This document shows positions 56,810-59,550 of a stretch of DNA of 64,000 nt, in pieces. The notes beneath the pieces were generated by a model. That model ran no database searches and was not told the origin of the DNA. It saw nothing but the letters and a program-made list of their open reading frames with translations. Position 1 is the stretch's first letter, and the number at the start of each line of letters is the position of its first letter. A program made the translations under genes and the position numbers. Source of the stretch: Gammaproteobacteria bacterium (GTDB lineage: Bacteria > Pseudomonadota > Gammaproteobacteria > Enterobacterales > Psychrobiaceae); NCBI GenBank assembly GCA_013214945.1, contig JABSRT010000008.1, positions 62,001-126,000 of the forward strand, in the 5' to 3' direction.

Positions 56810-57019
56810 ATGAAACAACAAGATATTATATTTTTTGAACCGTTATGGCGCCGAATCGCAGTAACCGCATTTTGTCTGCTATGGTCAGTGTTTGAATGGT
56901 TAAATGACGAATCATTTTGGGGAATGATTAGCGGAGGATTTGCGATATATTGTTACTGGTCATTCTTTAGAGATGGCATTGATCAAGACCAAGTTAACGC
57001 TTCACGCCCTGAGGATTGA
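56810..57019 (+). CDS. Small conserved membrane protein of unknown function
   Basis: 69 residues: IIFFEPLWRRIAVTAFCLLWS then a second hydrophobic stretch with many Trp (WGMISGGFAIYCYWSFF). Two membrane helices. It resembles small Shewanella hypothetical proteins by memory. Its stop codon lies two bases from the stop of the convergent IS110 transposase, so the insertion may have replaced its original 3' end. Confidence 0.6.
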   Translation: MKQQDIIFFEPLWRRIAVTAFCLLWSVFEWLNDESFWGMISGGFAIYCYWSFFRDGIDQDQVNASRPED

Positions 57020-57020
57020 A

Positions 57021-58267
57021 TCAACTCAATAAAGGTGAACCACGCTTTTTTAATGCGTTGAGGTATTTCACTTCATCATAGGGTTTTCGGTCTTTCCAGC
57101 ATCGGTAAACTATCCTGATCCATTTGAACGCTAAAGCCCTTACTGCAGCCTGATGTGAGGAGCCTGATTCGCGTTTTTTTTGATAAAAAATGTTGGCCCA
57201 ATAAGAACTGTAAATTGAATGGGCTGCCCATTCAACAAAGGTTTGACGTAAAAATTTTGAGCATTGCCAACGCCAGTGAACCCAACATTTATTGCCGCTG
57301 CGTTCTGTGACTGGTGCAATACCAGAGTATTGCTGTACCTCGTTAGCAGAAGAAAATCGATCCCGTTGTTCACCAAAGGCTACGAGTAAACGCGCAGCAT
57401 AGCAAACACCTGCCCCAGGTAAATTTTCAAACAAATTAGCATCTGGTAATATTTTCATTAACTCTGCAATCTTTTTATCAAAACATTTTATGTGTTTCAT
57501 TAGAATGGAAATTATTTCCACTAAAGCCAAAACAATCATGGAATGTGTCTCAATTACAGCTTCATCATCGGTTAATGGTAATGCGCTTTTAACCTCATTG
57601 ATGCGCTCTTTAACTTTATTATGGCTACGGATATGGTTGTCATTAAAAAAGGATTTTAACGTCGCTCTACGAGCTTTTTGTGCTTGTTGAAGGGTTGGCC
57701 ATCGCGATATAAAGTTACAAAAAATATTAGTCTCCTTTTTAGGAAACCAGTCGATTGCTTGCGGATAATACTGCTTTAAATTATTGATAATTTGATTAAC
57801 GAAACGTTGTTTGTCGTTAACTAATTTCTTTCTCTTTTCAACGAGGTACATTAGTTTTCGTATATTTAAACTCTGGATTTTTAATGGAGTAAATATTTCT
57901 GGATATCTGAGCATTAATTCAAGAGCAATCTCGGCGTCGGTCGGATCGTCCTTGGCTTTACTAGGCTTAAAAGCGCTTCGATATTTAGATAAAGTCGTAG
58001 GATTTATCGGTACAATAACCAAAAATTCATACCGTTGTAGAGCATAGATGATTGGCCCTTTTGTTAGCTCCACAGCAACTGCGATTAAACCACCAAAGCG
58101 TTTTTTCAGGTAAGAGCCCATGTTTCAATATCTTCAACATTATGCTTTATAATAGAAAACTCTCGCTTGTTATTGATCGGATCTTGTAAACAAATATCAT
58201 GTTTATCATTCGCCCAATCTATACCGACAAAAGCACTGTATTGATTTGTTTCTAGATGAGAAGCCAT
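57021..58267 (-). pseudogene. IS110-family transposase with a single-base frameshift
   Basis: The start is ATG 58267 after TGGAGG. The first 50-odd residues (FVGIDWANDKHDICLQ) carry the first acidic residue of the DEDD RuvC-like domain and stop at 58106. The second frame (58121-57021) supplies KAKDDPTDAEIALEL with more acidic residues, a coiled coil, and the C-terminal Transposase_20 domain with LPGAGVCYAARLL and VQQYSGIAPVTERSG. Adding one base near 58112 (CTTAC to CTTTAC) joins the frames as ETWALYLKKRFGG, a natural IS110 reading. No slippery heptamer is visible before the first stop, so a mutation is likelier than programmed shifting. Confidence 0.85.
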
Positions 58268-58297
58268 AAAACCTCCAATATTAAGTGATTGAGGCAT

Positions 58298-58500
58298 GTC
58301 TTTTCAGATCCTTCGAAGGCAATATAAAGAGCACTGTAGGCAAGCCCTGAGTATTCGTTAGTGAATCTGAGGTACTCATTTTGTCGAAAGCAAAGCGTAA
58401 ATCATCTAATGTTTAGGGGCACGATTCGTACAAAATGAGCACATGCCTACTTGCTAGTATCAGCTATTTTGTAGACAAGAGATATTATAAAGGGGCAAGA
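58298..58500 (-). ncRNA. Possible bridge RNA in the IS110 left end
   Basis: Upstream of the transposase, nested complementary segments are seen: GTAGGCA (58336-58342) with TGCCTAC (58444-58450), and inside them CTCATTTTGT (58375-58384) with ACAAAATGAG (58430-58439). An additional small ATTC/GAAT hairpin lies between (about 58352-58365). IS110-group elements express a bridge RNA from this position with two target- and donor-binding loops. The fold is only eyeballed; extent is approximate. Confidence 0.4.
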
Positions 58501-58719
58501 CAGTGTTCAAGAGAAAGTGCAGGGAAATGTTCAAGATAAAGAAAAAGTTGAACACAAATAATCTAGCCGACTTACCTTAAGATCACAGCCCTAGCATAGC
58601 AATGGTATTAGAGACGTCAGAATTTTAGAGATTTAGTGCTGATAATCCCATGATTAGTGGCGTAATTTACGCCACTAATCTCTAGGTAATTTACATCGTT
58701 TTAAAACAAAAACATCAGT
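58501..58719. other. Gap between the IS110 element and the RpiR gene
   Basis: 219 bases with the RpiR-gene hairpin at 58652-58680 and otherwise nothing recognised. Confidence 0.4.
58652..58680 (-). terminator. Hairpin after the RpiR regulator gene
   Basis: GATTAGTGGCGTAA and TTACGCCACTAATC are exact 14-base arms around a single base, 39 bases beyond the stop of the minus-strand RpiR gene. No long U-run. Confidence 0.65.
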
Positions 58720-59550
58720 TCAATCATCTTTGCTTTGCAGTGCCATTAGCGTGGTGAGTGTCTGTGCGATACACATCGATGATGTTAACGAGCGGAAACT
58801 ATGAACCTCGGCATCAAGTACTTCAAAGTAAATCTTAGCGCCTGTTGCGATTGGGCTAAGTTTACTGTCTGAAATGACTATCACGGGTACATTCATTTTT
58901 CTCGCATTTTCCACTACTTTGACCGTTTCTGGTGAATAAGGCGGGAATGAGATTGCAATCAAAACATCGTTAGCCCGCATGTTATTGGCGACTTCAAACA
59001 GCATGCCCCCGGTACTACTGAGCAGATGAGTCCGGTAGTTAGCATGATTTAATGCATAATTGAGATAGTTTGCGACCGCAAATGAACGACGTTGCGCCAT
59101 GATATAAATATTATCCGCACCCTGGAGCAACTCGATAGCTTGCTCTAGACTTTGTGGAGTGATATTTTTTTCTAGCTCTTGCAACGAAATTATATTTGAC
59201 TGGCAATATTGCTGCAACAGCGAATGATGGGCGTTAGTATCACTTATTGCACCGTTATCAACCGTTCTCAGCCGCTCTTTATAACTGGCTGAACGTTCGA
59301 CTACTCGCGATTGAAAGGCCTTTTGCATTTCACTAAAGCCCGAATATCCAAATATTTTTGCAAAACGGATCAGTGAAGACGGCTGAACTTCTGCGCGTTT
59401 AGAGATCACTGCGACCGTTTCAATTGCCATATCGGTCGGGTGTTCAAGCGAAAATCTAGCGATGACCTGAAGTCTTTGACTAAGCGTGTTATAGCGAGAG
59501 GAAATTTCTTCGCGCAGGGTTTCGAAATCTTGTGCAACATTGCCAGACAT
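58720..59550 (-). CDS. RpiR/MurR-family transcriptional regulator (IolR-like)
   Basis: 276 residues. The N-terminal HTH_6 domain (ISSRYNTLSQRLQVIARFSL, then VQPSSLIRFAKIFGYSGFSE) is followed by a SIS phosphosugar-binding domain from about 120 (IYIMAQRRSFAVANYLNYAL, VLIAISFPPYSPETV, VIVISDSKLSP). RpiR-type IolR proteins control inositol genes in Salmonella and rhizobia. Here sites of the form GGAA-N6-TTCC lie near iolC, eno, the transporter operon, binding protein 2 and this gene. The effector is probably a phosphorylated inositol intermediate (inference). Confidence 0.9.
   Translation of the reverse strand: MSGNVAQDFETLREEISSRYNTLSQRLQVIARFSLEHPTDMAIETVAVISKRAEVQPSSLIRFAKIFGYSGFSEMQKAFQSRVVERSASYKERLRTVDNGAISDTNAHHSLLQQYCQSNIISLQELEKNITPQSLEQAIELLQGADNIYIMAQRRSFAVANYLNYALNHANYRTHLLSSTGGMLFEVANNMRANDVLIAISFPPYSPETVKVVENARKMNVPVIVISDSKLSPIATGAKIYFEVLDAEVHSFRSLTSSMCIAQTLTTLMALQSKDD

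Follow-up and report, generated by a model that had tools for sequence, protein, structure and literature searches.

Does the left end of an IS110-family element, upstream of its recombinase gene, encode the RNA that guides the recombinase to its donor and target DNA? The locus is a single element on the minus strand of the window, by which we mean the whole 64,000-nucleotide stretch of DNA that was analysed, and the original prediction had placed a candidate bridge RNA in its left end. The bridge RNA or seekRNA class was published in 2024 (PMC11208160, PMC11208158, PMC11187229), and the text of PMC11208160 reports thousands of predicted left-end RNAs, so that one more is expected. We conclude that the region very probably encodes a bridge RNA of the IS110 group, as helix covariation and loop matches to both flanks and ends indicate. 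Judged by its sequence, the RNA is a well-supported further example of the known bridge-RNA recombinase class; the proposal that it would add to the guide-RNA recombinase family thus stands for a further member, the class itself having already been described in 2024 in the texts of PMC11208160 and PMC11187229. The features are collected in Table 1.

Table 1. Features of the IS110-family element and of its predicted bridge RNA (positions in the window)
Feature	Position	Strand	Remarks
IS110-family element	57002..58489	-	1488 bp with the GA junction dinucleotide counted once; TATAAT... to ...CTCAGGGCGTGA
Recombinase, N-terminal part	58106..58267	-	53 codons, then stop (MASHLET...GIDWAN...WALT); start codon 58267
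Recombinase, remainder in another frame	57021..58121	-	366 aa
Left junction dinucleotide TT	58490-58491	-	Window; junction model
Bridge RNA region	58290..58489	-	Upstream of recombinase gene; predicted; 3' limit an estimate just past the outer stem
5' hairpin, 5' arm TTGTCTAC	58471..58478	-	Present in the minus-strand fold
5' hairpin, 3' arm GTAGGCA	58444..58450	-	Overlaps the outer stem at 58444-58447
Outer stem, 5' arm GGCATGT	58441..58447	-	Two-stem comparison
Outer stem, 3' arm ACATGCC	58293..58299	-	Two-stem comparison
Target-binding loop, 5' arm	58424..58440	-	Helix 1; ends in the ACGAAT collar
Target-binding loop, 3' arm	58372..58389	-	Helix 1; starts with the TTTCG collar
Donor-binding loop, 5' arm CAGATTC	58363..58369	-	Helix 3
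Donor-binding loop, 3' arm GGATCTG	58305..58311	-	Helix 3
Left target guide (LTG) CGTGCCCC	58416..58423	-	7/8 match to left flank CTTGCCCC
Right target guide (RTG) ACGCTT	58393..58398	-	Complementary to right flank AAGCGT, 6/6
Left target CTTGCCCC in host DNA	58492..58499	-	Flank match to LTG
Right target AGCGT in host DNA	56997..57001	-	Guide pairs also with A57002
Left donor guide (LDG) CTCAGGGC	58344..58351	-	Same letters as the right end; nearly invariant
Right donor guide (RDG) TTATA	58323..58327	-	Complementary to left end TATAA
Right-end donor sequence CTCAGGGCGT	57004..57013	-	Followed by the GA junction dinucleotide, 57002-57003
TATAAT, -10 box of joined-end promoter	58484..58489	-	Predicted from sequence
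TTGATT, -35 box of joined-end promoter	57019..57024	-	17-bp spacing; predicted from sequence

The ends of the element were placed by analogy with an ISEsa2-type relative for which both empty and occupied sites are available (the junction model). Empty plasmid sites read TTTGAGCGA-GA-AGCGGACAT in two loci (L040 and L041) and TTTGAGCGA-TA-AGCAGACAT in a third (L039), and the occupied site L038 reads TTTGAGCGA-GA-TATAGTC...CTCAGGGCGT-GA-AGCGGACAT; insertion in this one relative therefore adds no duplication beyond one dinucleotide. Three plasmid flank joins were tried, of which that of L038 gave 4 records and those of L033 and L036 none covering 80%. By the junction model the element of the window has 222 nt of non-coding sequence at its left end and 19 nt at its right end, the long left and short right ends being a trait of the IS110 group. 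The IS1111 group differs, its RNA lying in a long right end, which the 19 nt found here do not provide. The left end had been proposed to span 58298-58500; this holds as far as 58489, whereas 58490-58500 is target DNA by the junction model. Four Colwellia loci and L003 all begin to resemble the window at one common base, 58497, eight bases outside the assigned left end, because the target TGCCCC is common to all five.

The own genome contains a single full copy of the element and elsewhere only a 125-bp stretch at 74% identity. Neither flank of the window copy was matched in 8 other genomes of the genus when its own empty site was sought, and the pattern TGCCCCNNAGCGT had no match in the own genome. 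The element lies at the end of a small ORF (56810-57019), whose final residues are now right-end sequence, and the other flank (58490-58537), which carries an imperfect 24-nt tandem repeat, could have been the tail of this ORF. When the flanks are joined, the interrupted ORF grows to 87 aa. Shortening the join by one base yields 93 aa instead, and the tails of homologues in two other genomes differ; for both reasons the frame was set aside as evidence. Just outside the element, a perfect 14-bp inverted repeat with a 1-nt loop (I5, 58652-58680) is possibly a terminator beyond the gene at 58720-59550.

Nested complementary segments are present in the left end as had been reported, with an outer 7-base pair GGCATGT/ACATGCC and an inner pair CTCATTTTGT/ACAAAATGAG that lies inside repeat I7 (58372-58384 with 58430-58442, 13 nt, 92% complementary). 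The nesting is thus as described, and the outer arm begins at 58293 instead of 58298. Folding of the minus strand from 58268 to 58510 yielded -56.2 kcal/mol, compared with -46.6 +/- 4.1 for shuffled sequences (z -2.35; 2/200 shuffles equal). This single-sequence signal is modest on its own, and it is the comparative evidence that carries the case. Rfam had no match in the window between 50000 and 64000, and among four relatives it matched only a tRNA in L005; an RNA family was therefore built from the relatives. When the left end of the window was aligned with those of 16 relatives, a conserved block emerged. RNAalifold, applied to 18 sequences, predicted two hairpins with large internal loops, so that the one internal hairpin of the original prediction is replaced by two guide-bearing loops, both framed by an ACGAAT...TTCG collar.

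Over the 18 relatives, 17 of the 31 pairs have changed on both sides with pairing kept (11/17 in helix 1 and 4/4 in helix 3), and 95.3% of the cells are paired; the covariation that had been proposed as a check was thus found. The covariation score was reached in 0/500 shuffles, while further pair types, one of five measures, were not above shuffles (113/500). Sliding the partner lowered pairing to 31-45%, a control that deals with relatedness, which the shuffles do not; the structure itself was derived from the same 18 sequences. These, like the 20 used in the two-stem comparison below, were hand-picked for diversity. The covariation of the helices is strong. Chance inverted repeats in an AT-rich left end could have been suspected from a single-sequence fold that beats its shuffles only modestly, but the changes on both sides of the pairs, set against the slid controls, refute this explanation, whose probability we regard as negligible.

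The segment preceding the target-binding loop can pair with either of two arms, an upstream one forming the 5' hairpin or a downstream one forming the outer stem. Among 20 representatives, the mean energy with the own partner versus shuffled partners was -12.3 versus -8.1 kcal/mol for the 5' hairpin and -13.7 versus -10.6 kcal/mol for the outer stem, with 0/20,000 permutations in both cases, relatedness being uncorrected. L055 and L048 have only a weak outer stem. Since both arms compete for the same segment, we infer that the two stems may be alternative states of the RNA.

The first loop was compared with the DNA surrounding each copy. Guide scoring started from 71 sequences (L001-L070 and the window), from which 11 were excluded at the outset (window copies or flanks, L029 duplicates and fragments). 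Of the remaining 60, 38 entered the scoring; the other 22, including 4 empty-site loci, failed the loop or TATA anchors. Anchoring relied on CTCAGG(G) within the RNA together with right-end CTCAGGGCGTG and left-end TATA, and made no use of matches between guides and flanks. For the tests on distinct guides the first locus per guide was retained, and all guide permutations treat the loci as unrelated.

A variable segment following the first ACGAAT(A) resembles, in the same sense, the DNA just outside the left end, and this left guide matches the flank at 6/8 positions or more in 33 of 38 loci; the fit is poor (4-5 of 8) in the other five (L019, L023, L048, L063 and L064). For the 21 distinct left guides the mean match was 6.76/8 compared with 3.57 +/- 0.31 after shuffling of the flanks. 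When the flank window was slid, the mean fell to 2.3-2.9; offsets of -1 and +1 kept higher values (4.2 and 5.7), since the score allows two registers and these overlap there. The six-base segment before the TTCG collar is complementary to the DNA of the right junction at 5-6 of 6 positions, G-U pairs counted, in 20 of 24 loci, the misfits being L007 (2 of 6), L013 (3), L044 (4) and L063 (4). The mean for the 8 distinct right guides was 5.75/6 versus 3.55 when shuffled, and telling cases include CAATTT/AAATTG in L015, TAACAA/TTGTTA in L029 and TCGCTT/AAGCGA in L047. In the window copy, which belongs to the set from which the guide registers were read, the LTG match has a chance probability of 3.8e-4 per register (equal base frequencies, two registers allowed) and the RTG match one of 2.4e-4. 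One genome with two copies (G274) presents a crossed case, in which L063 has a right flank (AACCGA) that agrees with the right guide of L067, TCGGTT, but not with that of L063 itself, GCGCTT; mobilisation in trans or guide drift may be the cause.

These matches bear on the proposal that the structure serves solely as a cis-acting leader of the mRNA, controlling translation of the recombinase, and contains no guide. Its position upstream of the start codon at 58267 would suit such a role, and a regulatory leader could explain two conserved overlapping stems. It offers no reason, however, for the loops to track the flanking host DNA, as the 21 distinct left and 8 distinct right guides do (0/20,000 permutations each), and we consider a leader devoid of guides highly improbable. 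A leader role and a guide role are compatible and do not exclude each other. The loop comparison put forward with the original prediction thus favours a bridge RNA: each flank and each end of the element has its match in the loops, and the target guides change with the flanks across relatives.

In the second loop CTCAGGG is present in 17/17 aligned left ends, and its right-end counterpart CTCAGGGCGTG occurs within about 100 nt after the gene in the window and 10/16 relatives, and further downstream in L013, L014, L023 and others. As this motif hardly varies, the LDG gives no covariation, and the evidence for it is the identity of a near-invariant motif, which also served as anchor on both sides, so that donor matches and joined-end letters at the anchors hold by construction. 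The RDG is CTATA or TTATA, complementary to left ends TATAG or TATAA respectively, and its free base agrees with the left-end partner in all 36 readable loci among the 38 (27 G-C and 9 A-T), a support that amounts to one varying base with few independent changes. Outside this count, L016 has the left end TATGG and the loop CCATA. By these letters the second loop appears to match the joined ends of the element.

Joining the ends of the window copy gives TTGATT-17-TATAAT, and a spacing of 17 or 18 bp between TTG and TATA was seen in 22 of 25 joined loci, as scanned over 15-19 bp and without a shuffled control; the spacing is absent in L009, L044 and L053. A promoter across the joined ends is described for IS621 and ISEc21 in the texts of PMC11208160 and PMC11187229. 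By analogy with the work on these two elements, the element would excise as a circle, and the joined ends would make a promoter. The window copy would have used a site like TTGCCCC-NN-AGCGT. The sequences show pairing within the RNA, target guides in step with their flanks, matches of the donor guides and a joined-end promoter, together with, in one relative, an insertion lacking further duplication.

The recombinase frame is broken after 53 codons, at 58106-58121. The GIDWA motif is in the N-terminal frame, other than that of the 366-aa part, in which PF01548 (DEDD RuvC-like; profile 49-155) and PF02371 (Transposase_20) were found above curated cut-offs. Both parts can be aligned to intact relatives. 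Programmed frameshifting seems less likely than decay or a sequencing error, because the A-run comes after the stop of the first frame. Given this break, the window copy is probably immobile; any movement would require enzyme from another copy. It is somewhat probable that the RNA, a bridge RNA by descent, has decayed, the copy being a dead remnant whose RNA is no longer made or used; the frame break, the single full copy in the genome and the left-end remnant in another genome of the genus (see below) point this way. Against it, the window copy shows no sequence damage in its guides, loops, helices or ends, and the frame break may be a sequencing error. This possibility concerns activity and not identity, and is compatible with the bridge RNA of our conclusion.

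The genome scan yielded 22 loci, the nearest being four Colwellia copies with 69% amino-acid identity. Matches to the covariance model were obtained in 19/394 genomes of the order and 4/369 of the class, the own genome being included in both counts and weak matches being dropped by the strict filters. A second predicted bridge RNA, of another subgroup, is located in the own genome (L064 1501-1654, G000:C53:4258-4411); downstream of it, 271 codons stay open and carry the recombinase start motif. In a genome of the same genus, L003 (1501-1554) is a 54-nt left-end remnant, 94% identical and with the left flank ATGTGCCCC; no other part of the element was matched in that genome. L058 and L060, which match the whole RNA model weakly and over only 106-107 nt, are perhaps decayed bridge RNAs with their loops missing.

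Plasmid relatives include ISEsa2-type elements, IS110-like according to the plasmid annotation, which at 54.6% amino-acid identity are the nearest named relatives found. Their RNA block, guides and ends can be aligned with those of the window, but their target is TTGAGCGA instead of TTGCCCC. No description of the RNA was found in the portions of the literature seen that name ISEsa2. As the texts of PMC11208160 and PMC11208158 describe IS621, the window shares with it an RNA encoded ahead of the recombinase gene in a long left end, the succession of a 5' hairpin, a target loop (LTG, RTG) and a donor loop (LDG, RDG) in equal order and strand sense, and, likewise by published description, a joined-end promoter and RuvC-like DEDD and Transposase_20 domains. 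The recombinase itself is only distantly similar to that of IS621 (E 2.7e-4, residues 209-352 of the 366-aa part), and likewise weakly similar to the other solved recombinase, ISCro4 (E 1.1e-4). Compared with IS621 by text and not by figures, the branch of the window differs in the collar on both loops and in an outer stem that encloses both loops and overlaps the 5' hairpin; the terms 'three-way' and 'alternative structure' are absent from the text of PMC11208160, figures aside. The ISEc21 seekRNA, as PMC11187229 describes it in its text, is also encoded upstream of the transposase gene, with the bottom-strand match 5' of the top-strand match, a circle with a joined-end promoter and target bases that are not duplicated. 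It differs in the short 74-nt form to which the target matches were mapped, the likeness being one of description and not of sequence.

The junction dinucleotides also set the branch apart. At the right, 23 of 25 loci have GA and the other 2 GT; at the left, 13 different dinucleotides occur among 38 loci, CT in 7 of them. The left dinucleotide is not simply that of the target, since L033 has TC where the empty site L042, with the same left flank, has GA. In the text of PMC11208158, CT is the core of IS621 and its relatives, with GT, AT and TT accepted too; the branch of the window, with GA (or GT) at the right and a variable left dinucleotide, differs from this preference of IS621 for CT. The window copy, with TT at the left and GA at the right, has no CT core at both ends, and was hence filed in the IS110 group and not in the IS621-like CT-core subset. 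A more far-reaching reading combines these dinucleotides with the overlapping stems: in a distinct IS110 branch with differing dinucleotides at the two junctions and no shared CT, the bridge RNA would be a conformational switch, the conserved 5' hairpin and the loop-enclosing stem vying for one segment so that the RNA would alternate between leader and guide forms. We regard this reading as rather unlikely.

A bridge RNA accounts for one insertion and its site in this genome. Beyond it, the analysis adds a well-resolved branch, distant from IS621 in protein, in which 21 distinct natural left guides could be read against their flanks. It provides natural evidence on the guide register in a lineage with a non-CT junction dinucleotide, which is relevant when recombinases with different core rules are to be chosen.
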